Positions 2,236 to 31,267 of a stretch of DNA of 31,912 bases are shown piece after piece. Under the pieces are notes generated by a model. The model saw only the letters and a list, made by a program, of their open reading frames with translations. It did no database searches and was not told where the DNA came from. The position numbers were made by a program, and so were the translations under genes. Position 1 is the first letter of the stretch. Each line of letters begins with the position of its first letter. Origin of the DNA: a virus; the IMG/VR virus record IMGVR_UViG_3300044731_000044, positions 1 through 31,912 of that record. One strand, 5' to 3'.

Positions 2236-5200
2236 TCAACGCCGCACGCCTGTTGCGGGAGCAAGGACGTTCTCTGTCTCACCCTCGTATAGCGCATCCA
2301 ACCCATCCAGCGTGCGGTTGATCTGTGCCGATGGCAGGCCCGTGAACGCGCCGATGAGGTTGACGGCAGACTTTCGGAATGCCTTGTCAAATTCGCCCTG
2401 GCTTGCCTGCGTCGCAAAGTTGTATGTTTCGCCAACCGCTCGCAGGCCAGCAGGTCCGCCGTATCCCATGCGCGGTCCTTCGGCACCAGCAACGATCTTG
2501 CTGATCTCGCCAAACTCGCGGACGATGACCATCGTGCCCATCAAATAGGACAACTGCTCGGCAGCCAACTTGCGGGCAATGGCCTCGAGGTCTTCAGGTT
2601 CATCCTCTGTCTTCGGAACCATTGCCTTGCGGATCAACTGGCCCAGCACGACAGGCACCACGAACAGCATCGCATAGTCGGCAGCCAGCTTGCCCTTGTT
2701 CTTGGCAGTCATTGTCTGAACCGCAGCCATGTTGTAGACCGTGTTCATGTAACCGTAAAACACCGTGAACAACTTCAGGCCGGCACCGCCACGCTCAACT
2801 CGGCTCAAGTCCTTCAGCATGCCGCCGCCCTGCGAATCGATCACGGCCTGATCCGCCAGAGCAATGGATGTGTCCTCATCGCGGCCCTCGTACAGTGCCT
2901 TCTCGTAGGCACCGATCCAAGTCGGGACATCGACCATCCGCTGCATCCGCATCATCAGGAAATAGGTACCCATCTTGATGCGTCGCATGGCAACGCTATC
3001 GCCCTGCACCATGTTCCGCAGTTCGTTCAACTCGCGGAACTGCGTGCGAGAACGATTCGCCATGAAATCAGACTTCTCGTTGACCATCTTCATCGACAGC
3101 AACGGCGACTGTGCCACGGCTGCAATGCCACGACCGATCCACTTCACGCCGACCCTGACGATGGACTGGTTGAAACCAGTGATCTGCAATGCCGCGCTGA
3201 CCACGTTGAATCCGAGGCCGGCAGAACTGATGCCCTGCCGCAGGAAGTTCAATGCCATCTCTGCTTCGTTCTGCACGCCACGCTCGCCGGCAGCAACATC
3301 CTTGATCCACGTCTTCAACTGGCCGATGAACTCTGGTCCATACTTCTCACGCACGGCCTCATCAAACGCCTGCGACCGCATGAGCCGATTGGCCTGAATC
3401 AGCCATCGGTGCCACGACAGGTCATGGATGACCTCATTGACGCCGCCGTACATGCCAGCCAATGTGTAGAGCAGCGGTCGGCCCTTGACCTCCTTGACAC
3501 GCGACTTGGTGTAACTACGCCGCGTGGTCGCGCTGGTGAATGCACCAGCCAGGTCTCGCTTGGCAACCTCTGCGTCGGACATCGTTTCCGAACGCATGGA
3601 TGCTCGAGGGTCATACTTGATCGGGTAATAGCCACCGCGCAGCGTGACCGTCTTGCCATCCGCCGTCTGCACGATCATCGGCTTCGGCTCGACCCAATTC
3701 GGCTCCTTGCCGTACAGCTCGCGCTCCTTGGCAGCGATCTCCGGTCGGTATGTCTCGAAGTAGTCCCAGACCTGCTGGACGAGGTTCCATTCCTCCTCGG
3801 TCAGCGACTGGAGAATCGGCGTGATCTGCTCAATCGACCAGCCCTCGCCATCCAGTAGGCGTTGGATGTTGCCATCGTTGCCCATGTTCAGGGCAATGAC
3901 AAGCCTGGCCTCGCGGTTGAAACTGCGGTCCACGGTCGGGAAGTATTGGCCCTTGCCTCCCATCTTTCCGAGCTTGAAGATCGGAGCGAATATCGCCGTC
4001 AGGCGCTCGGTCGCCTGCGCCCGCATGGTCGTTTCCTTGTCGCCGGCATCGTTTGCCGAACGAATCAGGTAGTTCCACACTGGCCCGCCATCCTGTGCTC
4101 CGTCCAGGATCCGTGCGATGGATGCCGCCTTCAGGTGTGCGCCGACGAAACCCTTGAGCGTGGTGATGGCACGACCAATGTTCGTGGTCGCGGTACGAGC
4201 GTTCGCCTTGCGGTCGCCGGCATTGGCGATCACGCTTGTCACAATCTCGTCGCGGACCTTCTCGAAGTCGGCCTTCTCCGCAGCCAGCTTGATCTTCCGC
4301 TCGTTCTTGCTCATGAACTCGATCTGCTTCACGGCGTCCATGACCGCGTTAATTTCCGTGACGGTCAGGTTGCGCCACGGCCTGCGGTTCGATTCGGCCA
4401 GCACTTCAGGGTCGATGTCAGGCTCAAGCCCTTCGGCACGCTTGGCTTCGACCCACGCCGCTAGGTCGGCCCGGCGGGCCGCCTCGGCGCGGCTGATCGG
4501 TGCCAGTTCAAACCTGTCCAGAATGCCGGCGATCTGGTCGGCATAGTCCGCACCCATACGCTGGCGGTTGCTGTCACGCAGCACCCTGCGGAGGTATTTC
4601 AGTCCCTTCTGAATCGCGTCATCGGCTTTCTGCGCCTCGGTCGCCAGCGCGTTCTGGTAGAGCTGCTGGCGCTTGGCCTGGAGCATGATCTGCTCGCGAG
4701 TGGCGTCTGCACCGTACCGATCCCGCAGGCGCTTGGTATCGGCTCCTCGGGCCGCCTCAATGGCATCCCGTGACGCCCTAGCCTCCGCCGCCGCGTACTG
4801 GTCGGGCCGCAGGTCGCGGATAACTGTGTTTCCGACCGCGTCCACCGCAGCCTGCCTAGCGGCCTCCTGGATGACCCGGACGGGCTGGGTGGCCTTGGAC
4901 AGCCACCGGGCCTCAACGGCCACCAGACGGGCTCTGGCTTCGTTATGGATGGCCCTGTTGACCGCAGCCTCCTGCGCCTTCGGATCACCCATCTCGGAGT
5001 AGTCCCGGACCATGATTTCGTCTGTCCTAGCGTCCACCACCTCGCGCATGGGCTTGGCGTCGGCCAGCGCCTGTAGCAGGGCCGACCCGGCTGGGAAGCC
5101 AAACATCTCGGCCACGATGTCCGGGTGTAGCCCGTCCTCGGCCAGATAGCCGTACTTGCCACGGCCCATCTTTGCCATGTCCAGGCCCGGCACGAACTCG

Positions 5201-8200
5201 CGGGCCAGCGCCGTGTTGATCTTGTGGACGCCCTCAACCGTGGCCTCGCTGCCGTCCGGGCCGATCAGGGTGCCGCGCTTCAGGTATTCCATCGCCCGGT
5301 AGATCGGCTCCTGCCGTACCTCGGCCATCACCTGGTCGCGGATCTCCTTCCGCTGGGTGTCGTGTGCCTTCTGCAACTCCTTCAGCTTCTTGCTGCGGGC
5401 GTTGCTCATCCACTCGACCTGCTTCATCGTGTCTGCGGTCAGGGCCGCGATGGCCTCGTCGGTCGCCTCCTTCTGCATGGCCTGATACGCAGCCCATGTG
5501 GCATCATCCATGCCAGACTCGGCCTGGGTCTGGAACAGACCCTTCATGTTGTTCACCGCTTCGGCACGCTTGATCTGCTCCTCGCTCGCCAGCATCCGGT
5601 CGAACACGGCCCGGATCTCTGGCGTCAGGATCGGCAGGTCAGTGCCGAATTCGCGGCGGTAGATCGCGTTCAGGTCATCGCGCAGCGACTTGTAGACGCG
5701 CCGCATCCATGCCGCGATCCTGTCGAACACGCCGCGCATCTCGACGCTGGGAGCCTTGCCATCGAGCAGGTAGTCCTCGAAGTTGTAGGTGATCTTCTCT
5801 TCGAGCGGCCTGCGCTGCTCGAAGGTCAGCCCGTTGTACGTCGCCAGCCGTTCCTCGAAGGTTGCGCCGGCAACGCCCATGAACTTGAACAGTTCGTCCA
5901 GGTCAGCCTTGATCCTCGCCGGCGCGTCGGGCGCACTAGCAATGCGAAGATAAACTTCCACTTTGTAGTGGATGAGTTCATGGAACAGGGTGGTGACATC
6001 GGCACCCTTGTTGATGATCGTGGTCAGACGGCGCGGGTCGAATCCGCCTCGGGCTGGGCCTCGGGCTGCTTGCTCAAATCCGGCTCCTGCAAGCCGAGCA
6101 TCTTGGCGAAGAACGAGGTTTCCAATTCTTCGTTCTGCTCCTGCTGTGCGCTCTGCGGCGATGGTTGCGAGTTCTGCATCTACTTCCCCTATTGTAGCGT
6201 TGACAACATCCTGCGAAATGCCCTTCGCAAGGGCAAGTTTCGCTGCGGAGTTTGCGTAATCCGGAGCGGCATTGTCCTCGTATCCCGTCTGCCCTTCGTC
6301 GGCTGTCTTTGCGGCGTCGTACAGTCTCTTCTCCGGATACCAGAGAAGCGCCTGAAGATCGCTCATTGTCAGGCTTGGGAACTGCGTCTGAAGTTCAGCA
6401 AGTGCCTGTGCAAACACTTTGCGGATTCGCGCTCGCTCCGGAGGCCCGCTTGGTGCTTCCTTCTGACCATCAAGATACTTCGCGAGAGCGTTACCGAGTT
6501 TGCGGAACTCATCTCCATACGAAATCCGCTGCACTCCGCGTGTCGGCTCTCCGATGATTTTCGTGAACTTCGCTTGTGCCTTCTCGTCGGCGATTCCAAT
6601 CTTCGCCATTTCAAGTCGGTTTTCTTTCTTCGTGCTTGCCTTGTTGATAGCAGCGGCAAGCGAATCAAGATCATCCGTCGCCAACGACATCCCGACAATC
6701 GCCTCAAGTTGCTTCCGGTTCTTTGCCGGCATCGCCTTGATAATTCCGGCGAGTTGCTTTCTCTTTAGAACAATGTTTCGCTCATTGTCCTCGAGCAGCG
6801 TTCCAGTCCACCGGCCCCAGGTTCGCATCAGCCAACGATCCATAGTCAGCTGCTCGAAGTGGCCGTACAGATTCGCGAAGAAGCCGTTTCCGATCTTCGG
6901 GCCAAGTGCTGCCGCGCCATACACCTCGGTCGTAAGATTCTCTCCGCTGACGTTCTTGTTCGTGTACGCGATGACTTCCTTGACGGTCGTCTTGGAGGTC
7001 ATGAATTTTTCAACTTCGTCAATGCCATACTTATCGACAAGCTCGTTGAACAGTCCGAGACTTTCGTTGATGGCAATCTGCGCCGTACCAGCGCCGACGT
7101 TGGTCGGCATCTTTCCAGTTTGCTTGTATTCAGCGTAGGCGCGCTCCGCAAGTTCAAAGTTCTTGTCAACCTTGAGGCCGTTTGATGTAACCGCGAGCGC
7201 CCACGTGAATGCAAACTTTGCCCTCGGATCGATTGCGATCTCCGGATGAATCAATGACACAAGCCGAAGCGCCTTCGTGACCTTTTCGTTGTACCAGCCT
7301 ACCGCGTTCGGATTCGTTCGCAATGCGGTAATCGCGTCTGCTACTGCAACTCGAACGAGATACTGCTCGACATCTGGCGTGAACTGCGTCAGATCAATTC
7401 CAGCTTCTTTCGCGGCGGTATTTACCCGATCCTGAATCGCCTTCTTGAACTGCCTGTTGTTTCGGAATGTCTGTGTTCCAGCGAAATCAAATGAAGATTC
7501 GACATTCGATGCGGCATCAATCGTTGTAGGAACGCCAATCGCCGCCTGCTCAAAGATCCGTGGGCTGGTGATGTCGAAGCGGCGCGACAGCGGCACGATA
7601 TTGCCAGCCTCATCGCGGGTGACGGCGTCGGCGGATTTCACCTGTTCAGGTCGCGTGGCGACATAGAACGTAGAGAGGTATTGTTCCGTATTGCGGAGTG
7701 TGTCAATGTTCTGCTGCGAAATCGTTTCCAAATCGCCTTCGAGGATGCCCTCAATGCTCAACTCGCCTTCGCGCCATGTTGGATCGAACTGCGACTTCAC
7801 GTTCTCAATCTTGCCTGGATTCAGGTATAGATCCATGCGACGGCCATACCAACCTTCCGGCGAACTTGTCAGCCAGATGCCTGGTCCCGACTTGCCGCGC
7901 TCAATGTCGAACGATGTGAACGGCTGTTCCGATTCTGTGAAGTGATACACTGGAATCGTGTACCCACTTGCCCTCGCCGCTTCGTCCACCATGCGCTGCG
8001 CCGTCGCCATGTCGCCGCGCTCGACGGCAGCCATGTAGTCGGAGTCGATGCGGGCAGCCTGGTCGAACATCTCTGGTGCAATCGGAATCTGATCCAGCAC
8101 CTCAAGCACGTCCGTCTTCGTCAATGCGGCTTCGGTCTCCAGCCGAAGATCCTGATCGATGCCGGCATAACCAAGCTTCTTCGCCGCGATGACGATGTCA

Positions 8201-10449
8201 TCTACGGTCGCAAGATCGGTGCGAAGGGCTCGGCCCATCGACGCCGCAGTTCGGTCGTAGTCGGTCGAATCCTTGCTCTTGTTCAGCAGTACCTGGTTGA
8301 TGGCACCCAGCAGATAGTCAAACGCTTCTGGCGTTTTCAGATACTTGCGCGGCACATCGATGCCACCAAGAACCGTGCGCATGGCCTGACCAGCCGCAAC
8401 CTCGTCGCCATCGACTGGATGCGTAATAGGTCCGAAACCGCGCTCATCCAATACCCGTGACGTAGGCAGCAGTTCCACGACTCGCGCCGATGGTTCAGGG
8501 ACAGCCGCCTGCTCCATCGCCTGAACCGGCATTCCTGCGCCAACAATCGTCGGCTGGTACGTGCGGTTGTATTCCTCTGGCGTGATGCCCATCGCGGCGG
8601 CATCAACCACCACCATCGCCTGATGGATCTTCGCGTAGGTGCGGGCCTGCACGTCGGAGTAGCCGACCGCTTTCACCGCGTTGAAGATTGAGTCCTCGAC
8701 CGCCTGCGCCGACTGCACGAACGCAGCATCGACCGTCTGCTTCTCCTCCATCAGACGCTCGGCCTGGGCCACGATCTCGGCCCTTGAAGACTCCACGGCC
8801 TGCGCCTCGGTTGCACTGATCGCGTCCGGCGCGAGCCGCATATGTGGCAGCAATGCGTTGCCAAGATCCGTGCCAGCCAGCCTGGCCGCGTACTGCGCGG
8901 TCGGGATCGTCACATCGCTGCCCGTGGTAGCGGCATCGCGCACCTTCTGGGACAGCCCAGGCACCACGGCGTCAAGCTGCGAGTCGGTCACGGCGGCCTG
9001 CTCAAGGACGCCGCGCATGGTGGCTCCGTCCACGAACACGGTCTCGGCGTTGGTGCCAGCCGCCTGCGCTGCCACGAAACGTTCGTATGCGCCGGCATCG
9101 CGACCACGCACCTTGCTCTCGGTAGCGTTTTGCGTCAGGCTCTCAAAGAACTTGGTCTGCCTGCCAGCCCGCTGGGCACGCTTTAGGTCGATGGCGAGGT
9201 TCGCGCCTGGTCCGATGCCACCAATGATGGCCGCTCCCATCGCGCCCTGCACCGTCGCGTCGATGATTTGATCCACGGCCTGCCGCACGGTGGTTTCGTT
9301 GACCATACCGCTAGAAACCTTTGCAAGTACCTCGCCAGTAATACCAACGGTTTCCTGTAGACCTTCCTCTGCAGCTTCCGTTCCGACCTGCAAGACATAG
9401 GACTTGCCGGCCTGCGCCAACGCGGCCCGCATCGTGGGCTTCTTTACGGCCTCGGCGACCTGCTCGCGCAAAACCTTGGTCAACATACCCTTGAACGGCG
9501 CAAGCGCAATCTTTGCGCCAGCAATTTCGATTAGGCCGTTGATGAGTCCGACAGCAAGTGCGGCCGGCACTGCAATGTCATCTGGAATGCCTTCCTCGCG
9601 CATATCCAAATACCAGTTGCCCGCTTCAAGGCGCTCTGTTGTTGCAAGTATGGAAGTTCCTAATCCAATCGATCCTCCGATGCCGGCGCCAACTGGACCC
9701 AACCATGATCCTGCGGCAGTACCAACGAGCGTAGATGCCGCCATTTCACGTGCCGAAGATACTTGTTGCGCAACAACTTCCGCTGTTTTTCCTAACATGC
9801 CCGGCTCTCCGAGCGCCTGCAACTCCTCCTGCAACTGACGCGCTCGATCGTACTGACTGTCGTCAATCCCGCCGATTAGCGCAGCCATTCCAATCTCGCC
9901 TCGTTCAACAACTCGTTGGCCTCGCATATATCCACGCACCAACTCGCCGGGTATATACGTCGCAGGCATGCCAGCAGCCACGCGGCCCACATCCATGAAC
10001 ACGTTCTTCAGACCATCCAGCACGCCGACATCGTCGCTGGCCTGCTGCGAGAAGTTCCTGTCCATCAGGAACGATGCCAGCACCGGGTTCGTACGCGCGA
10101 TGTCACGGGCCTGCATGTCGGCCATGAACGCGCGCTGGCGCACCTCGTCCAAGTTCCGAAGTGCCACATCCTGCCCGACGCCGATACGCGCACCGAGTCG
10201 CGACGCCTCCGCAGCCTGGTCAGGGTTTACGCGGGACGCGCTCATCAGCGATGACATCAGCGGGATCTGGTCACGGTTCACGATGTCCAGCACATCAGGA
10301 TCGACCTGCTGGTTCATCGTCGGCTGGGCCGCCGCAGGCTCCTGCGCCGGCTGACCGAGTACCGCCAGCACGTCAGGATCGACGGGCCCGCCCGGATTCT
10401 GCGATGGTGCGAACTCGGCGCGGCGCTCGTCTGGCGTGAACGGAATCAT
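2236..10449 (-). CDS. Giant polyvalent internal virion protein (ART-like and zincin-like domains)
   Basis: This 2737-residue protein sits where T7 carries its large internal core protein gp16 and is probably ejected into the host with the DNA. I place the start at ATG 10449, overlapping the upstream stop as ATGA. Gly/Ala-rich hydrophobic segments lie near residues 235-270, 290-317 and 396-420, and one more near 2588-2610. Residues 834-960 (VYHF, GIWLTSS, GWYGRR, QVKSADA, then GNIVPLSRRF) match the ADP-ribosyltransferase-like domain of polyvalent proteins. HELIHY at 1490-1495 is an HExxH zinc-protease motif, followed by a NFEDYLLDGKAPS stretch that often accompanies it. A Lys/Glu-rich coiled-coil-like region covers about 1650-2050. 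The C-terminal third resembles large polyvalent protein-associated domains. DNA for residues of about 830-1450 is less GC-rich than its flanks. I see no lysozyme or transglycosylase motif I can name. Confidence 0.85.
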   Translation of the reverse strand: MIPFTPDERRAEFAPSQNPGGPVDPDVLAVLGQPAQEPAAAQPTMNQQVDPDVLDIVNRDQIPLMSSLMSASRVNPDQAAEASRLGARIGVGQDVALRNLDEVRQRAFMADMQARDIARTNPVLASFLMDRNFSQQASDDVGVLDGLKNVFMDVGRVAAGMPATYIPGELVRGYMRGQRVVERGEIGMAALIGGIDDSQYDRARQLQEELQALGEPGMLGKTAEVVAQQVSSAREMAASTLVGTAAGSWLGPVGAGIGGSIGLGTSILATTERLEAGNWYLDMREEGIPDDIAVPAALAVGLINGLIEIAGAKIALAPFKGMLTKVLREQVAEAVKKPTMRAALAQAGKSYVLQVGTEAAEEGLQETVGITGEVLAKVSSGMVNETTVRQAVDQIIDATVQGAMGAAIIGGIGPGANLAIDLKRAQRAGRQTKFFESLTQNATESKVRGRDAGAYERFVAAQAAGTNAETVFVDGATMRGVLEQAAVTDSQLDAVVPGLSQKVRDAATTGSDVTIPTAQYAARLAGTDLGNALLPHMRLAPDAISATEAQAVESSRAEIVAQAERLMEEKQTVDAAFVQSAQAVEDSIFNAVKAVGYSDVQARTYAKIHQAMVVVDAAAMGITPEEYNRTYQPTIVGAGMPVQAMEQAAVPEPSARVVELLPTSRVLDERGFGPITHPVDGDEVAAGQAMRTVLGGIDVPRKYLKTPEAFDYLLGAINQVLLNKSKDSTDYDRTAASMGRALRTDLATVDDIVIAAKKLGYAGIDQDLRLETEAALTKTDVLEVLDQIPIAPEMFDQAARIDSDYMAAVERGDMATAQRMVDEAARASGYTIPVYHFTESEQPFTSFDIERGKSGPGIWLTSSPEGWYGRRMDLYLNPGKIENVKSQFDPTWREGELSIEGILEGDLETISQQNIDTLRNTEQYLSTFYVATRPEQVKSADAVTRDEAGNIVPLSRRFDITSPRIFEQAAIGVPTTIDAASNVESSFDFAGTQTFRNNRQFKKAIQDRVNTAAKEAGIDLTQFTPDVEQYLVRVAVADAITALRTNPNAVGWYNEKVTKALRLVSLIHPEIAIDPRAKFAFTWALAVTSNGLKVDKNFELAERAYAEYKQTGKMPTNVGAGTAQIAINESLGLFNELVDKYGIDEVEKFMTSKTTVKEVIAYTNKNVSGENLTTEVYGAAALGPKIGNGFFANLYGHFEQLTMDRWLMRTWGRWTGTLLEDNERNIVLKRKQLAGIIKAMPAKNRKQLEAIVGMSLATDDLDSLAAAINKASTKKENRLEMAKIGIADEKAQAKFTKIIGEPTRGVQRISYGDEFRKLGNALAKYLDGQKEAPSGPPERARIRKVFAQALAELQTQFPSLTMSDLQALLWYPEKRLYDAAKTADEGQTGYEDNAAPDYANSAAKLALAKGISQDVVNATIGEVDAELATIAAERTAGAERRIGNLVLRQDARLAGAGFEQAARGPARGGFDPRRLTTIINKGADVTTLFHELIHYKVEVYLRIASAPDAPARIKADLDELFKFMGVAGATFEERLATYNGLTFEQRRPLEEKITYNFEDYLLDGKAPSVEMRGVFDRIAAWMRRVYKSLRDDLNAIYRREFGTDLPILTPEIRAVFDRMLASEEQIKRAEAVNNMKGLFQTQAESGMDDATWAAYQAMQKEATDEAIAALTADTMKQVEWMSNARSKKLKELQKAHDTQRKEIRDQVMAEVRQEPIYRAMEYLKRGTLIGPDGSEATVEGVHKINTALAREFVPGLDMAKMGRGKYGYLAEDGLHPDIVAEMFGFPAGSALLQALADAKPMREVVDARTDEIMVRDYSEMGDPKAQEAAVNRAIHNEARARLVAVEARWLSKATQPVRVIQEAARQAAVDAVGNTVIRDLRPDQYAAAEARASRDAIEAARGADTKRLRDRYGADATREQIMLQAKRQQLYQNALATEAQKADDAIQKGLKYLRRVLRDSNRQRMGADYADQIAGILDRFELAPISRAEAARRADLAAWVEAKRAEGLEPDIDPEVLAESNRRPWRNLTVTEINAVMDAVKQIEFMSKNERKIKLAAEKADFEKVRDEIVTSVIANAGDRKANARTATTNIGRAITTLKGFVGAHLKAASIARILDGAQDGGPVWNYLIRSANDAGDKETTMRAQATERLTAIFAPIFKLGKMGGKGQYFPTVDRSFNREARLVIALNMGNDGNIQRLLDGEGWSIEQITPILQSLTEEEWNLVQQVWDYFETYRPEIAAKERELYGKEPNWVEPKPMIVQTADGKTVTLRGGYYPIKYDPRASMRSETMSDAEVAKRDLAGAFTSATTRRSYTKSRVKEVKGRPLLYTLAGMYGGVNEVIHDLSWHRWLIQANRLMRSQAFDEAVREKYGPEFIGQLKTWIKDVAAGERGVQNEAEMALNFLRQGISSAGLGFNVVSAALQITGFNQSIVRVGVKWIGRGIAAVAQSPLLSMKMVNEKSDFMANRSRTQFRELNELRNMVQGDSVAMRRIKMGTYFLMMRMQRMVDVPTWIGAYEKALYEGRDEDTSIALADQAVIDSQGGGMLKDLSRVERGGAGLKLFTVFYGYMNTVYNMAAVQTMTAKNKGKLAADYAMLFVVPVVLGQLIRKAMVPKTEDEPEDLEAIARKLAAEQLSYLMGTMVIVREFGEISKIVAGAEGPRMGYGGPAGLRAVGETYNFATQASQGEFDKAFRKSAVNLIGAFTGLPSAQINRTLDGLDALYEGETENVLAPATGVRR

Positions 10450-12245
10450 CGCGACGGCCTGCCCTTCTTGATCCAATACTGCGCGATCTGCGAGAATGTC
10501 GGCGTTCTGTTGGTCTTGCCAAACTCACGGTTTGCCATGTCCATGAACGACGGCGGGATCTGTCCGATGTTGACCTGAATTTCCCTGTCGTTCTCGCGAA
10601 CCATGACATACATGGCATCGCGCTCTGCCTTGGTCAACTTCTCCATCGCCGCGATCTGCTGGCTTGGACGCATCTTTCCAAGTTCAATCACCCGATCCGG
10701 CAAGTACGACTTTTCGATATAGAGCGTTTCGCCGAACCGTAGGATTTCGTCGCGCATGATTGCAGCCTTCTCTTCGCGTGACAATTCGCGCTTGACGCGC
10801 TGCTGCGCAACATCAATCTGATCCTTCACCCGCGTTGTGAGCATGTCGGCCATTTCCAGATTCGTCTTGTCGCGACCGGGTTGCGCAATGTCCCGCATGC
10901 CGTTTGCGTTCAGGATGTCCTTGAACTGGTCCGCATCAACCGTCGCGGCGCGGATCTTGTCTGGCGCATTCAAGTCCTTGAGATATGCCAGATACGTTTC
11001 TGGAGTAAGAAGATGCCGACGTTCGTCCAAACTCTCTCGGGTCAGTTCTTGTGGATTCTGTGCGAAATAAACCCGTGTCGCGATGTCATCTTGGTCTCTT
11101 TGGGCCTTCAGGAACATTGCCTGATCCGCAGGTTCTAGGCGACCCCATACACCCGGTGGAATGTTTTCTGCCCTGTTGCCTGGAATAGCAAGGAATTGAG
11201 TAACCCGATCTTTTAGTTGGATTTTTTCCTGCCGGACTAATGCGTCTTCCTGTGCGTATTGCGTCCGAAGCGATGCAGAGACTCCAGCTTGGTATTCCTT
11301 TGGAACCTTGTCCACCAACTGCAAGGCTTCGCGCAGTGATGCCGGCGCGTCCTGTGGGTTGTTGGCCTCATCATCCGGCATACCGACCCGTCCATAGCCC
11401 TTGATCGTGGTCGCGTACTGGTCGATCATCCAACGGTCGCGGTTGGCGTCGATGCTGGACAGCAACGGCTGGGCAGCCTTCTCCTCGAGGTTGCCGGCCT
11501 TCAGTTCAGCCTTCACGAATTGGTATGCCTCGTCATAGTTGCTCTCGAGCATCATCCTGTTCACGACGCCGTCCGTGACCTGCGTGCGCAACTGCTTGAC
11601 AGCAGCCTGCATCTGGGCCGAATCATCCGTCCAGCCCAGCGCCCTGCCTGCGGTGCGGATCTCGTTCTCGGCGACGCCGAGGTTGATCGCATATTCCGAC
11701 ATCGGCACGGCCCTGTTCTTCCAGTCCTCAATCGCGAGCTGCCCGTACTGCTCGGCACGCGCACGCGACTCGTTGACCGTAAAGGTCTTCACTTCCTTGT
11801 CGCGGTGGTCAAGTATCTGCGCCTGGAACGTCATCATGTTCCGAGACATCGAGTTACGGACCATCGCACGCTGCGTGTCATTCCTCAGTCCGTCAAGCGT
11901 TCCCTGTCCCATCTGAGTCAGCGAATCGACAGTCTCCGCATACCGAGACTCGGCATCCCTGCCGGCGCTACGCAGATATCCGTTCTGGCCGCGCAAGATC
12001 GTGTTCGCCTGCTGAATGAACGCTGTATCCGCCGCCTTGGCCTCCGACTCGTCAATCGCGTCCTGAATCGCGCTCCCGATACGGAATGCAACGTCGCCGG
12101 CCTGCGTCATTGCACGGCCAAACTGCACCTGTTGCTGGGCCGCAAGGTTCTCGGTGACTGCCACCTGCGGTGCCTGCACCATTCCGATGTCGCCTGCGCC
12201 TCCCGGCGCGACCTGCGGTACGAACGTTGTAGGTACGGTCGGCAT
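10446..12245 (-). CDS. Internal virion protein (T7 gp15-like position)
   Basis: This 599-residue soluble protein is predicted to be mostly alpha-helical, rich in Gln, Ala, Arg and Glu, with no signal peptide or membrane segment. It starts MPTVPTTFVPQVAPGG and has long heptad-like stretches around residues 35-170. It lies between a gp14-like protein and the giant gp16-like protein, which is the position of the T7 internal core protein gp15. From that I infer a part of the ejection apparatus stored inside the capsid on the portal. GAGG lies about 9 bases before the ATG, and the stop overlaps the next start as ATGA, implying translational coupling with the giant protein. Family assignment rests on context and general appearance rather than on a motif. 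Confidence 0.7.
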   Translation of the reverse strand: MPTVPTTFVPQVAPGGAGDIGMVQAPQVAVTENLAAQQQVQFGRAMTQAGDVAFRIGSAIQDAIDESEAKAADTAFIQQANTILRGQNGYLRSAGRDAESRYAETVDSLTQMGQGTLDGLRNDTQRAMVRNSMSRNMMTFQAQILDHRDKEVKTFTVNESRARAEQYGQLAIEDWKNRAVPMSEYAINLGVAENEIRTAGRALGWTDDSAQMQAAVKQLRTQVTDGVVNRMMLESNYDEAYQFVKAELKAGNLEEKAAQPLLSSIDANRDRWMIDQYATTIKGYGRVGMPDDEANNPQDAPASLREALQLVDKVPKEYQAGVSASLRTQYAQEDALVRQEKIQLKDRVTQFLAIPGNRAENIPPGVWGRLEPADQAMFLKAQRDQDDIATRVYFAQNPQELTRESLDERRHLLTPETYLAYLKDLNAPDKIRAATVDADQFKDILNANGMRDIAQPGRDKTNLEMADMLTTRVKDQIDVAQQRVKRELSREEKAAIMRDEILRFGETLYIEKSYLPDRVIELGKMRPSQQIAAMEKLTKAERDAMYVMVRENDREIQVNIGQIPPSFMDMANREFGKTNRTPTFSQIAQYWIKKGRPSR

Positions 12246-17223: not shown

Positions 17224-18246
17224 TCAGGTGAGGCGGGCTTCTGCGTTGATGAGGGCATCGACACGGCGGCACGGAACGCCGAGGAACGACAGCCACGAGT
17301 AGGGCGTACCGAACTGCGACAGACCTTGCTGCACGGACAGCACGTTCTGGGCGCGATCCATCGCCTGGATGGACAGACCGCCGTGGACGGTGCGGTTCAT
17401 GTAGAAAGCCGCACGGCCCATCGCCATGTTCGGGATTCGGTACAGGGCACGAGTCATCAGCTTGATGAGCTGCGTGGCCGCCGTGGAAGCCTGCGTGCCG
17501 CTCGCGTTGGACATGTCGCTCGCGTCGATGTTCGCAATGCGAACGACGTAGCGCCAGTCCTTCACGACCAGACCGTTCTTCCACTGGTAACGGGTCGCAA
17601 ACGCCTGCAGACGGTTGTTGCCGTCATACACGGTCTGCTCGCCGAGATCCTCATGCATGAGGCCAGCCGTGCTGCCCTTCGGGAACGGGCAGTAAACGGT
17701 ATTGTCGCCCCAGACCACGAGGTAGACCGAGGTGTTGTCGCTGCCGGTGCCGCCACCCTCAATGATGTTCTGGCCGATGCCGGAACCACCAGGAGTGGTG
17801 GAGTAACGAGCAGCCAGACCGAGGAACGACTTCGGCTCGATGGCAGGGTTGCCATAGAACAGGGTCGTGGCCTGGGTCTGGTTCATGGCCTCAAGGAAGG
17901 CCACGTCCTCGGACAGACGGAACTGCGCGGTGTTGCCGTTCAGCATCGCCAGATCCTTGTCCACCTCGCTGCGAGCCTCGAGGATTCCACAAGCCTCGTC
18001 CACCTGCGCGGTGGTCGAACGGCTGTTCGGAATGCCCTGGTTCAGCGCACGCCAGTAGACGGCGGGCAGACCAGTTCGGATCACGACGCGCTCGCCGGTG
18101 GGCAGGTTGCCCTCCTTGAACACGCAATCCTCGAGGATCTCATTGCTCTGGGACAGCAGTTCCGCGATGACCGGCACGCGGCCCTCGGGATCGGTTCGCT
18201 TGGCCCAATCGGCCAGCGTCAGGTTGTTGGAAGTAAGCACTGCCAT
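17224..18246 (-). CDS. Major capsid protein, GP7/Bbp17 type
   Basis: This 340-residue protein is expected to have the HK97 fold and build the icosahedral shell. It starts MAVLTSNNLTLADWAKR and continues with VPVIAELLSQSNEILEDC and RVVIRTGLPAVYWR, typical of the epsilon15 GP7/BPP-1 Bbp17 capsid family in both sequence and length. It follows the scaffold gene after 21 bases and precedes the cement gene, the order seen in that group. The ribosome site AAGGG lies 8 bases before the ATG inside a small hairpin (18251-18269), which might modulate translation. There is no sign of a protease gene nearby; members of this group assemble with a separate scaffold. Confidence 0.9.
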   Translation of the reverse strand: MAVLTSNNLTLADWAKRTDPEGRVPVIAELLSQSNEILEDCVFKEGNLPTGERVVIRTGLPAVYWRALNQGIPNSRSTTAQVDEACGILEARSEVDKDLAMLNGNTAQFRLSEDVAFLEAMNQTQATTLFYGNPAIEPKSFLGLAARYSTTPGGSGIGQNIIEGGGTGSDNTSVYLVVWGDNTVYCPFPKGSTAGLMHEDLGEQTVYDGNNRLQAFATRYQWKNGLVVKDWRYVVRIANIDASDMSNASGTQASTAATQLIKLMTRALYRIPNMAMGRAAFYMNRTVHGGLSIQAMDRAQNVLSVQQGLSQFGTPYSWLSFLGVPCRRVDALINAEARLT

Positions 18247-18250
18247 TGGA

Positions 18251-18269
18251 AATTCCCTTTCGTGGAATT
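18251..18269 (-). promoter_or_regulatory. Hairpin overlapping the capsid gene ribosome site
   Basis: A perfect 6-bp inverted repeat (18251-18256 with 18264-18269, loop of 7) spans the end of the scaffold gene and the Shine-Dalgarno sequence of the capsid gene. Part of the AAAGGG is in the loop and part in the stem. It is AT-rich and weak, so ribosomes finishing the scaffold could open it, which would couple the two genes. Confidence 0.35.
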
Positions 18270-18942
18270 AGGTGTTGGTTGAGTACAGAGCATCGGCCAA
18301 ATCACTAAAGGTCTTCGGGCCACTCTTGGCCTGTCCGACGCTTCCGGTGACGATCCGATCCTCACTGATTGCCTTGCCTGCGCGGTACATGAACCGGATC
18401 ACTTCCGGGTGATCGCCCAGGCCCGACGTGTTGAGCAGCGTGCGAAGTTCGGACGTGCCGAACGTGTCAAGAGCCTTCTTTGCGGTGGACAGGTTCTCGG
18501 CCAGCTTCTCGCCGCCGAACTCCTGGTCAGCCTTGGCTGACGCAACCCACTCGCCACGAATGGCCTTGACCTGCGATTCTTGACGGCTTGCCAGCGTTGG
18601 GCCCATCCGGTCGAGAATCTTCTGCGCGGCATCCTGCGTCAGGTTCAATTCGCGGGCAACCTCGGAGAAGTTCTTGACTACCTCCGAGTCGAACTCGCGG
18701 CCTTCTGGCGCCTTGAATTCGTACTTCTCTGGAGCCTGCGGCGCTTCGGCCTTGGGCTCCGTCTTGTTGTCCGCAGCCTTGTTCTCCGTGGCCGGCTCGG
18801 CGGCTGGAGAGTCCTTCGGCGCAGTTGCCTTCTGCCCATCACCATAAAGCGCCTCTGCCGTCGCAGTGGTGCTTTCCGGTGCCGAAGATGCTTGGGAGCC
18901 GTTAGTTGGAGTTGCGGCTTCCATCATCGTTGGTTCGTTCAT
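18268..18942 (-). CDS. Capsid scaffolding protein
   Basis: This 224-residue protein has the usual make-up of a scaffold: a disordered Ala/Pro/Glu/Lys-rich N-terminus (residues 1-75) and a helical C-terminal two thirds. The segment from 74 (YEFKAPEGREFDSEVV) through NFSEVARELNLTQDAAQKIL to NTSGLGDHPEVIRF is a pattern I recognise in scaffolding proteins of BPP-1-like and related podoviruses. It lies directly upstream of the major capsid gene and overlaps the Bbp19-like gene by 41 bases in another frame. The likely role is to guide procapsid assembly and then leave the head. Confidence 0.8.
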   Translation of the reverse strand: MNEPTMMEAATPTNGSQASSAPESTTATAEALYGDGQKATAPKDSPAAEPATENKAADNKTEPKAEAPQAPEKYEFKAPEGREFDSEVVKNFSEVARELNLTQDAAQKILDRMGPTLASRQESQVKAIRGEWVASAKADQEFGGEKLAENLSTAKKALDTFGTSELRTLLNTSGLGDHPEVIRFMYRAGKAISEDRIVTGSVGQAKSGPKTFSDLADALYSTNT

Positions 18943-21009: not shown

Positions 21010-21348
21010 TTAGCCGCCGAGAAGGGATGACCGACCAAGTTGCAGATCCTGCGGGTTGACGCCCATCGGCCCAGTCAGCATGGTGCTGGATGGACCGCCC
21101 TGCGCGCTTTCCTGCGCCGCCTGCATGATGCCGCCGACCGCAGGCTCAATTCGATTGGCTGCTGCCATCGCCTGACGCGACAATCGCGTTTGACTTTGCG
21201 CCTGCTTTGCGGCCTGCGCCTGAGCGGCCTGCTGTTGACGCATGGCCTCTTCCTGCTTTTTCTTACCTTGCTCTCCAGCATAAACGCCGTATGCCGTGCC
21301 TGCTGCTGCCACAGTCACCGCTGCAATTGCCAATGCGACTGCACTCAT
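21010..21348 (-). CDS. Small protein with N-terminal hydrophobic segment, between SET and portal genes
   Basis: This 112-residue protein has a hydrophobic Ala/Val-rich stretch at residues 3-24, then a Gln/Lys/Ala-rich helix (28-60) and a Gly/Ser/Pro-rich tail with TMLTGPMGVNPQDLQLGRSSLLGG-like end (split: TMLTGPMGV at about 89-97, LGRSSLLGG at the C-terminus). I recognise this tail from small proteins just upstream of podovirus portal genes, but know no function. Its ATG overlaps the upstream stop as ATGA, and the portal follows after 3 bases, so it is made with the head genes. A small internal virion or portal-associated protein is possible; a membrane role cannot be excluded. Confidence 0.75.
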   Translation of the reverse strand: MSAVALAIAAVTVAAAGTAYGVYAGEQGKKKQEEAMRQQQAAQAQAAKQAQSQTRLSRQAMAAANRIEPAVGGIMQAAQESAQGGPSSTMLTGPMGVNPQDLQLGRSSLLGG

Positions 21349-22193
21349 CGTGATTCCTCCAGTCTGTATGCAAGTTCCTTTGCCTGTCCGTAATCCACAG
21401 TAATTTCGTCGCCACTGCCGATCCTTTCAGTAGCAACCAATTCGATTTCGGCATCGCCAGTGCCAGCCATAAACATGGCGTTCGGCGTTGCAGAATGATT
21501 CGTCCATCGCCCTGCAATGCACCGCTTACCTCTACGTCGGCCTGGCGCAATGATGTCATGCGGATTGATATCTCGAGTAGCGAAGATGCCAATGCCGTGG
21601 ATTGCTGATTTGCCGCGCCTGCAATTCTGTTCACACAGTTCGGTCACAATGCAATCGCTTTCGTCCTTGACGATTGCATCCACCAACTCTTGCGACATGC
21701 CGAGCGCCTTTCGGAATTCCGAATATGACAACCGATCCAGGCTTGCCTTGTCGTAGGCAATGCCGGTGCGATTTGTCTGCAACCGCTTCGGCTCGCTGGT
21801 CAAGTCTGCCTCCGCCTGTTCGACCGTCGTGGCATTCGTCGGAATAATCGTGGTCCAGTTCGTTTCGGAGTGCGTTATGCCAGCTCGGCGTGCGCCCTTG
21901 GTGGCTGGCAGCACATTGAAGCCAGTCAACCGCTGCGGGCCTGCATCCGTGGTGACGGTGATATCGCCGTCCACGATGCAGATGTTGTCGCAGGATGTCA
22001 GGGTGCCTGTCAGCATCGTGTTTGCTGGTATCCGAATCGTCCGTGCGTACATGCCACCATGCAGTAGATGCGTCGTTTCGATGTGCACTTGTGGCATCGA
22101 AATGGCGACATCCTCGAATCGGCTCACCAATTCGTTCTGGTGCTGCCGTATTTCGCCGCTGACCGTATTGCCATCGTCGTTTACTACGGGCAC
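21345..22193 (-). CDS. Cupin-SET fusion protein, putative protein lysine methyltransferase
   Basis: This 282-residue protein joins two domains. Residues of about 30-125 look like a cupin-type beta-barrel (HLLHGGMYARTIRIPANTM, NICIVDGDITV, VLPATKGARRAG). Residues of about 190-275 are a compact SET domain: HGIGIFATRDI at 199, TNHSATPNA at 231-239 and IGSGDEITVDYGQ at 258-270, holding the NHS and DY motifs that bind S-adenosylmethionine and the target lysine. A linker helix lies between. I chose GTG 22193, two bases after the terminase TGA, because AGGAGG stands 6 bases before it; an ATG at 22217 inside the terminase gene lacks that support. DNA here looks less GC-rich than the terminase gene. 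SET proteins methylate lysines; the target could be a capsid, portal or host protein. The cupin metal ligands are not clear. Confidence 0.8.
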   Translation of the reverse strand: MPVVNDDGNTVSGEIRQHQNELVSRFEDVAISMPQVHIETTHLLHGGMYARTIRIPANTMLTGTLTSCDNICIVDGDITVTTDAGPQRLTGFNVLPATKGARRAGITHSETNWTTIIPTNATTVEQAEADLTSEPKRLQTNRTGIAYDKASLDRLSYSEFRKALGMSQELVDAIVKDESDCIVTELCEQNCRRGKSAIHGIGIFATRDINPHDIIAPGRRRGKRCIAGRWTNHSATPNAMFMAGTGDAEIELVATERIGSGDEITVDYGQAKELAYRLEESR

Positions 22194-22194: not shown

Positions 22195-23520
22195 TCACAC
22201 CTCCTCGTATGGGTCATAGTCCTTCGGGCGTGGGTCGATCTTCTCGCGCACCTCGCGAGGCAGTTGCTTGGCTACCGGGTAGGCGAACGTCAGTGCCAGC
22301 GCGTCGGCGATGTCAGGGCTGCCGCCGCCCTGTAGCCGTTTCTTGATTTCGTCCTTGCTCTCGAGGACACGGCGACCGACCTGGTCGTACCAGAACGTCG
22401 GCGTGGACAGTTCTGCCTTGAGCGTGTTGTCATCCGGGATCGCGCCGCCGTTGTCGATCCATTCCTTGACCAGCCACCACATCTCTGCTCGCTTGTTCAG
22501 GAACAGGTTCGGCTGGGTCGCCTTGCCTCCGAACGGCACCTCGACGACGAAGTAGTCCAACTGCCGCAGGCGGTCGATGACGCCAGCGCCGGCACCGGAG
22601 TCGATGAACACGGCGTCCGGGTCACGGTCTTCGATGACATTGGCGACGGCTGCGGCCAGTTGCATGTTGTCCATGCCCTGGTAGATGATCGGCTCCTCCA
22701 TGCGCAGCCCTTGACGCAGCACGATCACGCTGCGGTCATCGCCGAACCGGGCCGGATCGACGCCGACCACCAGCGGGAACTCGAGTACGTCGCTGTCCGT
22801 GTATTCGCGGCCTGCCGCTGTCTCGGTGTCGGACAGGCTGATGAGCTGATCCGACCCGGCCGCGCTGAAGTCACACAAATACTCGCGAGCGAACGCGGCC
22901 TCCGGCATGTCGCGACGCAGGCGCTCGACCTCGTCGCGGTCCAGCGCGTCGGTGTCGTTGACCGTGTATCTGGCCGCGTACCAATCAGGCAGCGTCCCAG
23001 CCCGGTAGAACAACTCGCTGAACAGGTTGATCCCTGCCGGCGTGCCGATGAACATGGCCCAGCCCTTGCGGTCTGACAGCGCCGGCTGGATGATGTCGTT
23101 CCAAACCTCGGGCTTGATCTGGGCCACCTCGTCGATGACGCAGCCATCCAGGCGCACGCCACGCAGTGCGTCCGGGTTGTCGCCGCCGAACAGGCGGATC
23201 GTGGCACCATTGGATTTCAGCGTCACGGCCAGGTCAACCTCATTGATTTCGACGCCGCCGTACCGGCGCATGGGTTCGACCTTGCGCTTCAGGCGTGCCC
23301 AGGCGATGGTCTTGGCCTGCTTCAGGAACGGCGCGACGTACACGAAGAACGGCATCTGATCCCGGCACTTGATCGCGGCGTGCAGCAAACGCACCAGCGC
23401 CAGTTCGGTCTTGCCTGCGCGGCGGTGCAGTGCCAGCACGGTGAACCGCCTGCGGCGCTGATAACACTCGAGCTGCCACGGCCTCGGCGTGAATCCCAGC
23501 GGCACCGTGAAACTAGTCAT
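22195..23520 (-). CDS. terL: Terminase large subunit
   Basis: This 441-residue motor cuts concatemers and pumps DNA into the procapsid through the portal. The ATPase part shows the Walker A-like HRRAGKTE (32-39), Walker B VIDE (128-131) and the coupling motif IGTP (158-161). The nuclease part shows GVDPARFGDD with D255, FIDSGAG with D307 and SPDIADALAL with D403/D406, the acidic residues expected of an RNase H-fold nuclease. Length is that of a short terminase of the Sf6/BPP-1 kind. The ATG overlaps the small subunit stop by 8 bases. All key residues are present, so it should be active. Confidence 0.95.
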   Translation of the reverse strand: MTSFTVPLGFTPRPWQLECYQRRRRFTVLALHRRAGKTELALVRLLHAAIKCRDQMPFFVYVAPFLKQAKTIAWARLKRKVEPMRRYGGVEINEVDLAVTLKSNGATIRLFGGDNPDALRGVRLDGCVIDEVAQIKPEVWNDIIQPALSDRKGWAMFIGTPAGINLFSELFYRAGTLPDWYAARYTVNDTDALDRDEVERLRRDMPEAAFAREYLCDFSAAGSDQLISLSDTETAAGREYTDSDVLEFPLVVGVDPARFGDDRSVIVLRQGLRMEEPIIYQGMDNMQLAAAVANVIEDRDPDAVFIDSGAGAGVIDRLRQLDYFVVEVPFGGKATQPNLFLNKRAEMWWLVKEWIDNGGAIPDDNTLKAELSTPTFWYDQVGRRVLESKDEIKKRLQGGGSPDIADALALTFAYPVAKQLPREVREKIDPRPKDYDPYEEV

Positions 23521-24073
23521 CCGGCAGTCCCGTCACGACATTGATCGTGACCGATCCGCCGTGGTCGATCCCGACCTTGTCGCCGTACTTATTCGGACTC
23601 CACTTGGCGAGCAGTTTCAGGCGCGTGTCGATCTGAAGCCTGCGCCATTGCACCTCGACCTGGTCATGCGGAGGAGTGTCTGCAAGCGTGCGGCATTCCT
23701 CTGCTATGGCTTCGTATCCGTCCTCGCGCGCGCGCGCGAAGCGTAGGATAAGTGCTTCATTCGCATTGATCCAATCGTAAACCGTGGTGAAATGCGGATT
23801 GCCCGGCTGCCTGCACCATTCCCGCAGCGTCTTTCCCTCTGCAATCCAGCGCAGCAGACCCTCTAGGATGTCCCTAGATATGGGTTCTTTAGGCTTACCC
23901 GGTCGCCTTGCGCCTCCAGGAACGAGCGATTTGGGCTCGGCGCTCGTATCGGCAGATCTTGATGACGGTGTCTCGTCGGAGGTTGAACATTGCAGCGAGT
24001 CGCCGGTAGCCGATGCCCTCCTCTTCGTGGAGGTATCGGAGTCGCTGGACGGTTTCTTCCGGGATCGTGGCAT
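23513..24073 (-). CDS. terS: Terminase small subunit (Sf6-like), start uncertain
   Basis: The conserved part covers residues of about 55-165 of the 186 residues from ATG 24073: RRPGKPKEPISRDILEGLL, then AEGKTLREWCRQPG, TVYDWINANE, RLQIDTRLKLLAKWSPNKYG. This is the helix-turn-helix plus oligomerisation pattern of Sf6-type small terminases, which recognise the packaging site. The frame has no ATG, GTG or TTG near the start of the conserved part. The nearest usable start is ATG 24073, giving a Ser/Thr/Lys/Arg-rich disordered tail of about 54 residues that overlaps the upstream gene by 179 bases in the +1 frame. A frameshift from that gene, or a rare start codon, are alternatives. An alternating CG run at about 23725 lies inside the gene. 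Confidence 0.8.
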   Translation of the reverse strand: MPRSRKKPSSDSDTSTKRRASATGDSLQCSTSDETPSSRSADTSAEPKSLVPGGARRPGKPKEPISRDILEGLLRWIAEGKTLREWCRQPGNPHFTTVYDWINANEALILRFARAREDGYEAIAEECRTLADTPPHDQVEVQWRRLQIDTRLKLLAKWSPNKYGDKVGIDHGGSVTINVVTGLPDD

Positions 24074-24179
24074 TGTGGTGGGTCTCGCCGATGCGGTGCC
24101 CATGCTCATTGAGCGCGATTACTTGCGCTTCTTTGCGCGGGCTGGCAGGCTCTTGAAGCTGCTTGTCTTCTTTGCCCAT
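23895..24179 (-). CDS. Small helix-turn-helix protein
   Basis: This protein of up to 94 residues has the conserved part IALNEHGHRIGETHHNATIP (21-40), then VQRLRYLHEEEGIGYRRLAAMFNLRRDTVIKICRYERR-like helices (44-81), a clear helix-turn-helix. I recognise similar small DNA-binding proteins upstream of phage terminases. The first residues are uncertain: the frame has no normal start codon between ATG 24179 and the conserved part, and that ATG lies inside the 41-residue gene in another frame and lacks a good ribosome site. It may regulate late genes or assist packaging-site recognition; both are inference. Confidence 0.7.
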   Translation of the reverse strand: MGKEDKQLQEPASPRKEAQVIALNEHGHRIGETHHNATIPEETVQRLRYLHEEEGIGYRRLAAMFNLRRDTVIKICRYERRAQIARSWRRKATG

Positions 24180-30431: not shown

Positions 30432-30743
30432 CTACTCGGTCGTTTGACTGCTCAACTCCTCCACGATCGCATCACGCGCCTCCTGAATCCACGCAGCTCG
30501 GTCGCTCTGGTTTCGATAGCACCGCTCCACTCGTCCGAGCATGTTCTTCGTGTTGCTCGGTGCGCTCGAGACCAGCACGGCAATGCGACTCGCCGATAGC
30601 CCGGTCAGGTTGTGCAGCGCGTCGAACGCCATCAACCTTGCAATGACCGAATCCTTGTCCTTGACTCCCTTCGCCGGCCAGGCAAACCCACGCCCGGCCA
30701 GCGCCCGCTTCACGCCCTCAAGTGCTGGAGTATGGTGATACAT
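30432..30743 (-). CDS. Unrecognised small protein, 103 residues, possible helix-turn-helix
   Basis: This protein starts MYHHTPALEGVKRALAGRGF and contains FDALHNLTGLSASRIAVLVS followed by SSAPSNTKNMLGRVERCYRN, which has the spacing of a helix-turn-helix (residues of about 43-75). That would make it a small DNA-binding or regulatory protein, but the match is by eye only. The ATG overlaps the Gp157-like stop as TGATG, indicating coupling. Confidence 0.7.
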   Translation of the reverse strand: MYHHTPALEGVKRALAGRGFAWPAKGVKDKDSVIARLMAFDALHNLTGLSASRIAVLVSSAPSNTKNMLGRVERCYRNQSDRAAWIQEARDAIVEELSSQTTE

Positions 30744-31267
30744 CAGGAAATCCTCAATGTGGGCTGCTTCTCGACCAACCGCGCGAACGGCAGCGTTGCG
30801 CCGCCCTCGAGCGCCTCGCGGATCTTTGCCGTGTCGGTCTCAACTGTGGTCATTTCAAACTTGTAATCGTCCGGCACGTCGCCGACGATCTCCAGCGCAC
30901 GCTTACCGCCTGGCATCGCGAGCGTCACGCGCCAGCGCGAAGTTTCAAGTTTCTTGAACCCTTCTGCCTGCATGACGCGCAGCACGTGCGACCGGAACCA
31001 ATCTGCTACCGCCTGGTCGCGCTTGGCCCGCTGTCGCATCCGGTCAGCCTCTGCCTTGCGTGCCTCGGCTCGCGCCTCGATGTCGCGCACCAGCGACAGC
31101 ACATCGTCGATGGCCGCCGGCAGCGAGTCCGCCTGCCGTGCCAGAATGTCGAAATGCCCGTCGAATTCGGTGATGTCTCCGCCAGATTCCGCGCTGGCCT
31201 GGATCATCTCCTCCAGTTCCTGCGCCGCAGCAGTCGCTTCGTACAGTCGTGTGATTGAGTTGCTCAT
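30743..31267 (-). CDS. Siphovirus Gp157-family protein
   Basis: This 174-residue protein has the layout of the Gp157 family: an N-terminal helix (SITRLYEATAAAQELEEMIQ), a long charged coiled coil (about 45-100, IEARAEARKAEADRMRQRAK), then the conserved C-terminal part GFKKLETSRWRVTLAMPGG and VPDDYKF, ending GGATLPFARLVEKQPTLRI. The family was first linked to phage resistance when expressed in Streptococcus; in phage genomes it usually sits beside single-strand annealing or SSB genes. Here an SSB-like end lies 550 bases upstream, which fits. AAGGAG precedes the ATG. The start overlaps the upstream stop as ATGA. Confidence 0.85.
   Translation of the reverse strand: MSNSITRLYEATAAAQELEEMIQASAESGGDITEFDGHFDILARQADSLPAAIDDVLSLVRDIEARAEARKAEADRMRQRAKRDQAVADWFRSHVLRVMQAEGFKKLETSRWRVTLAMPGGKRALEIVGDVPDDYKFEMTTVETDTAKIREALEGGATLPFARLVEKQPTLRIS

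Follow-up and report, generated by a model that had tools for sequence, protein, structure and literature searches.

A cupin-SET fusion gene coupled to a putative ejection-protein gene in a BPP-1-like podovirus is exchanged for GNAT genes at the same site

Results

The fusion gene within the structural operon

The window, by which we mean the whole stretch of DNA analyzed here (31,912 nucleotides), is a viral contig of 31.9 kb that belongs to a BPP-1-like podovirus, and its structural genes all lie on the minus strand. Pfam and PHROG matches placed an Sf6-like terminase small subunit (terS, 23513..24109) and the terminase large subunit (terL, 22195..23520) on one flank of the gene under study and the portal or head-tail connector protein (PF12236, 19291..21006) on the other, followed by a protease/scaffold-type gene (18268-18942) and the major capsid protein (17224-18246). 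The gene itself encodes a 282-residue cupin-SET fusion, cupin::SET (21345..22193, minus strand), and the frame, for which the first-pass annotation had named no strand, proved to be real. It begins with a GTG at 22193, one base past the terL stop at 22195, and is preceded within the end of terL by an AGGAGG ribosome-binding site (22200..22205, 6 nt 5′ of the GTG), both as initially described; an alternative in-frame ATG at 22217 would give a protein of 290 residues. The stop of cupin::SET and the start of the next gene overlap as ATGA. This next gene encodes a Bbp22-like putative virion/ejection protein of 112 residues (21010..21348, minus strand). The fusion gene does lie between terminase and portal, as had been stated, but the portal gene is not adjacent because the 112-residue gene intervenes. 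Homology of the Bbp22-like protein to P22 gp7 or T7 gp14 was not established; the T7_gp14 Pfam profile gave E = 0.11 for one relative.

Two further genes on the minus strand of the window deserve mention. A frame of 2746 residues (2236-10476; phrog_9880, function unassigned) fills one quarter of the contig's length, 3′ of the tail genes, and is probably a giant internal/ejection protein. Additionally, a Mu Gam-like end-protection protein (phrog_253) is encoded at 30743-31267.

A SET domain with conserved motifs joined to a cupin barrel

The SET half of the protein (residues 189-271; 21381..21629, minus strand) scored 41.5 bits with Pfam SET (PF00856), for which the cut-off is 22.4 bits (E = 1.9e-10). 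From sequence alone, the family profile reached the MLL1 SET domain in the PDB at E = 1e-10 and vSET (1n3j) at E = 1e-7. An AlphaFold2 model, for which the input was an alignment with 60 relatives, had a pLDDT of 88 overall and above 90 across most of the SET half, and Foldseek matched this half to the SET domains of MLL1/MLL4 and to vSET (3kma) at E about 5e-5. The NHS (residues 232-234) and ITVDY (residues 264-268) motifs noted at first pass are both present, and the half carries a GxG at 200/202, NH at 232-233, E263 and, at the place of the catalytic tyrosine, Tyr 268. Across 64 non-redundant relatives (<90% identity), G202, N232, H233, E263 and Y268 were found in 64/64 fusions and G200 in 63/64. 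The idea of a SET-type methyltransferase with intact GxG, NH and E..T.DY motifs inside a structural operon is thus supported by Pfam, by the AlphaFold2/Foldseek comparison and by the 64 relatives.

In known SET enzymes, the SET-I insert contributes to the site that holds substrate and cofactor. The insert is almost absent from the window protein, with ~10 profile positions between the two matched blocks compared with ~45 residues in MLL1; SET-I is not needed for the Pfam match, yet its reduction is a genuine difference from known SET enzymes. A compact viral SET is also represented by PBCV-1 vSET (A612L), a stand-alone enzyme of a eukaryotic virus that acts on host histone H3K27, whereas the window encodes a shorter SET, attached to a cupin, within a podovirus structural operon. 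Overall, judging from sequence and the predicted model, the window gene codes for a cupin barrel followed by a SET-type protein-lysine methyltransferase that appears intact, and we infer that it is catalytic.

The cupin half (residues 20-134; 21792..22136, minus strand) belongs to a family that also occurs as stand-alone proteins (Bbp23, PHA00672, phrog_12032 and phrog_24280). It had rightly been called cupin-like: the AlphaFold2 model matches the RmlC-type double-stranded beta barrel, and the top Foldseek matches were the RmlC-like cupins 3fjs, 3d82, 2ozj and 2fqp. A metal-binding His/Glu motif was sought in this half of the window protein, and neither an HxH nor a metal triad was found; position 70 is His in 57/64 relatives and Asn in the window protein. 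The label 'short tail fibre' or 'tail fibre adhesin' comes solely from PHROG and GenBank names (Bbp23, PHA00672) and lacks structural support here, since the model shows one cupin barrel in place of a fibre fold. Kinship of the N-terminal half with P22 gp14 was rejected, as HMMER gave 0.1 bits and hhalign a probability of 0.2%, and the PADLOC anti-phage defense families gave no match to the window protein.

Two operon contexts and one constant neighbor

PHROG 34170 matches the window protein over its full length (E = 5.8e-47) and represents the same cupin::SET family, as an automatic family only; one member is a gene of a Manatee Spring phage that bears the annotation 'pbcV-1 histone H3-lys 27 methyltransferase structure'. 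A search of mainly open-access literature on phage SET proteins and PHROG 34170 found nothing relevant. Full-length relatives are present in the named phages PH1, Rhodoferax P26218 and zth2-2 and in many viral contigs, and a viral contig scan returned hundreds of relatives on 524 stretches, 80 of which, mostly holding complete fusions, were retained.

The fusions occur in two contexts. The window and its near relatives have the order terL, fusion, small gene and portal. Most fusions, however, reside in operons of the P22 kind, flanked on one side by the head-closure gene gp10 and on the other by a gp7-like ejection gene (phrog_598), and the constant linkage to terL and portal that a neighborhood survey had been proposed to reveal was not found, as most fusions lie away from both genes. 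The invariant partner in both contexts is instead the next gene, small and of a leader-bearing virion/ejection type, which is Bbp22-like in the window and P22 gp7-like in the P22-type operons. It overlaps the fusion or starts within 5 nt of it in 63 of 65 distinct downstream genes.

Variant arrangements were also seen. Paraburkholderia ferrariae carries a split version, a cupin gene followed by an overlapping SET gene (L225:4210-5657), and in a Comamonadaceae contig the SET gene lacks a full cupin and lies one short open reading frame upstream of an ejection-type gene (L226:4734-5300).

SET and GNAT alleles replace one another

We sampled 71 informative relatives through the portal gene rather than through the enzyme. 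The site between terL and portal held a gene for a GNAT acetyltransferase in 65 of them and cupin::SET in the remaining 6; none had both, and none had neither. The exchange can be followed at the nucleotide level in two close relatives of the window. The first, L473, which covers both junctions, has a portal protein 98.9% identical to that of the window and carries a GNAT (Pfam Acetyltransf_1, above cut-off). Its nucleotide sequence is 96.6% identical to the window in terL; the match ends 12 nt beyond the stop of terL, is missing over the enzyme gene and returns at codon ~24 of the Bbp22-like gene, at 95.8%. In this alignment, the exchanged block of the window spans 21277..22182 (minus strand), replaced in L473 by a GNAT gene and a different leader. 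The second, L471, also carries a GNAT and shows the same replacement at the inner junction, and its portal protein is 100% identical to that of the window (99.1% at the nucleotide level over 1986 bases). Near-identical backbones swap SET and GNAT alleles at one position.

These recombinants bear on the substrate first suggested, namely, the capsid or portal. A capsid, portal or terminase target would suit the terL-portal location that the window shares with its near relatives. However, the gene is found away from terL and portal in most fusions, and a swap of enzyme class leaves both proteins almost unchanged. Because the swaps leave portal and terL the same while the leader of the next protein changes, there is no specific support for a capsid or portal substrate, and the constant partner is an ejection-type gene; we regard such a target as very unlikely.

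Other phages fill the terL-portal position differently. In BPP-1 itself, two separate genes, for a GNAT (Bbp24) and a cupin (Bbp23), lie where the window has the fusion, after terL and ahead of bbp22-portal; the cupin half of the window protein shares 40% identity with Bbp23 over residues 23-144, and BPP-1 has no SET. An Asp/Asn-hydroxylase-like enzyme (aspartyl/asparaginyl beta-hydroxylase, PF05118) accompanies a GNAT at this position in Limnohabitans phage DC33 and 28 contigs (L021:4082-5154; L110-L138). Mixed arrangements occur at the BPP-1-type position as well, with a GNAT plus cupin::SET (L072) or cupin::SET followed by a GNAT (L013), and in many phages the cupin alone takes the place of the fusion. 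The DC33 record (PQ492659.1) is filed under Inoviridae, although the phage has the gene set of a BPP-1-like podovirus.

In P22-like phages, we rejected the proposition that a modifying enzyme always lies upstream of gp7, as 22 of 45 gp10-anchored loci had no enzyme recognized by profiles. Some of the genes at these loci are weakly GNAT-like (L420, Pfam Acetyltransf_4 at E = 0.0013, below cut-off). An uncharacterized family, phrog_21390, lies directly upstream of gp7 in three P22-like contigs (L414:7015-7482, L435 and L468). In an unbiased sampling of one bacterial class, gp7-like genes were found in 5/369 genomes, too few for statistics; directly upstream of the gp7-like gene, one of the five carries a hydroxylase-like gene (L387) and another a gp14-like gene (L389).

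Trees were built for each half of the fusion. In the cupin tree, the window's clade falls among BPP-1-type cupins, and a single clade of all fusions, window-type and P22-type, was rejected (AU p 0.016), as expected if SET joined cupins here more than once. In the SET tree, which is weakly resolved, the window's clade is nested among other SETs. The trees fit a scenario in which a resident cupin acquired a SET domain.

The downstream leader changes with the enzyme

The segment of the Bbp22-like gene that is exchanged along with the enzyme encodes a hydrophobic N-terminal leader (codons 1-24; 21277..21348, minus strand). It reads MSAVALAIAAVTVAAAGTAYGVYA in the window and MGVAEVIAGIAASIAAAGTGYAISS in L471 and L473, and the rest of the protein is nearly identical. 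Short hydrophobic leaders rich in glycine and alanine begin the next genes in both operon contexts. Counted over cases that are not independent, with starts assigned by rule, the protein encoded next has Ser at residue 2 in 60 of 64 distinct cases when cupin::SET precedes it, in 49/74 after a cupin alone and in 0/29 after a GNAT alone, where Ala, Pro or Gly is found instead; residue 2 is Gly or Val after a hydroxylase plus GNAT, and Leu in 48/54 after P22 gp14-type genes. The start-codon rule favored hydrophobic leaders, and a recount by the nearest ATG left the residue-2 pattern unchanged. On the portal-gene tree, the presence of the cupin changes 8 times; among 7 independent pairs, Ser2 follows the cupin in 5-6 and the reverse occurs in 0, a borderline result (p 0.03-0.06). 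These patterns are suggestive of a leader that follows the enzyme. The joint exchange could also reflect passive linkage to a conserved recombination point.

Directly after the leader, residues 25-31 of the window's Bbp22-like protein read GEQGKKK, and these lysines are partly kept in both the SET and the GNAT alleles of the window's clade. Among gp7-like proteins, no SET-specific lysine was found: one common lysine column has K in 21/56 SET-linked and 18/33 non-SET proteins, and some SET-linked gp7-like proteins contain one lysine in all, which argues against a simple rule of one target lysine. The lack of a SET-specific target lysine is what a non-enzymatic chaperone or adaptor might leave, in which the cupin and SET halves would hold the leader of the ejection protein and the SET fold would serve for binding only. 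The reduced SET-I and the occurrence of the cupin alone at this position in many phages point the same way. However, catalytic and cofactor residues that are invariant in 64 diverse relatives would be needless for pure binding, and the alternative occupants of the site are enzyme folds too. We therefore consider a purely binding role improbable.

Discussion

Modifying enzymes next to small virion-protein genes have been described in other phages. In LUZ19, the gene of Rac (gp28) overlaps that of a small virion protein ahead of the portal gene, much as in the window (PMC7552054); in the LUZ19 sequence examined here (L548:4535-5249), the overlapped gene is gp29, annotated 'phage particle protein', and the portal gene comes next. 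Rac leads to cleavage of the alpha subunit of host RNA polymerase, an effect that needs its acetyl-CoA pocket (PMC7552054). It differs from cupin::SET in having a GNAT fold, a host target and no cupin. Comparable gene overlaps have been recorded in YA3, between a 'DUF2833 putative acetyltransferase' and 'internal virion B' (PMC7326022), and in JC1, between an acetyltransferase and a virion-associated protein (PMC9144972). The window protein does not belong to the Rac-like host-takeover acetyltransferases, as its fold is that of a SET domain and not of a GNAT.

Rac nevertheless supplies the main rival to a virion target, which the first-pass annotation had preferred over a host one. A host-directed modifier would methylate a host protein, for example in the transcription or proteolysis machinery, and the late operon would be a convenient slot for host takeover. 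Rac, a GNAT at the same position in LUZ19, acts on the host, and the enzyme type varies at the slot, as host-takeover genes do. Yet the GNAT in the corresponding place in LKA1 leaves RNA polymerase alpha intact (PMC7552054), and a host target would explain neither why the gene is so closely coupled to a single virion-type gene across two operon types nor why leader and enzyme change jointly. A virion-type partner therefore appears likelier to us, and we think a host target rather unlikely.

P22 itself offers a further parallel. Its gene 14 (L099:8911-9366), annotated as DUF2824 and a 'virion stability factor' or head morphogenesis protein, lies immediately 5′ of ejection gene 7, the place that the fusions take elsewhere. 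The AlphaFold2 model of gp14 (pLDDT 85, pTM 0.80) has a GNAT fold, with a TM-score of 0.78 to the N-acetyltransferase 5ix3. Sequence profiles detected no relation of P22 gp14 or T7 gp13 to Bbp24-type GNATs, so the GNAT assignment of gp14 rests on the predicted fold. This putative acetyltransferase has another enzyme fold than the window protein and no sequence similarity to it.

After weighing these data, we propose a putative mechanism in which the ejection-type protein is both the partner and the substrate of an exchangeable protein-modifying enzyme, and we give this reading a probability of roughly 0.5. cupin::SET would be synthesized immediately ahead of a small virion/ejection-type protein that bears a hydrophobic leader, and the two would be coupled in translation. 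The metal-free cupin barrel would probably act as a binding or docking module and the SET half as the writer, with the fusion binding the coupled ejection-type protein through its leader region. During head assembly, one or more lysines on this protein or on a partner would then be methylated. In this phage, Lys29-31, directly past the leader, are candidate sites, and the lysines of GEQGKKK might be modifiable by either a SET or a GNAT enzyme. The identity of the substrate and contact of the enzyme, not merely of the cupin, with the leader are both what we infer.

To exit the capsid, ejection proteins have to pass the narrow portal, and they form a channel through the cell envelope. We speculate, tentatively, that podoviruses may possess a modification cassette, in which an interchangeable writer (SET, GNAT or Asp/Asn hydroxylase, accompanied or not by a cupin adaptor) would be passed on as one unit with the matching leader of the first ejection protein, and in which recombination would switch between methylation, acetylation and hydroxylation. 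If so, P22 gp14, and perhaps T7 gp13, would be classical members.

The protein family was already present in databases, where it had no function, and GNATs had been noted singly, as the JC1 moron gene and LUZ19 Rac. In a search of mainly open-access papers, we found no prior account of the function of the SET fusion, of allelic exchange between SET and GNAT or of the pairing of enzyme and leader, and none that assigns P22 gp14 to the GNATs. The cupin fold casts doubt on the 'short tail fibre' label across the Bbp23 family. A SET that alternates with acetyltransferases and comes with a matching leader makes the modification of ejection proteins directly testable, and the predicted GNAT fold would give the long unexplained 'morphogenesis' gene 14 of P22 a concrete, testable role.
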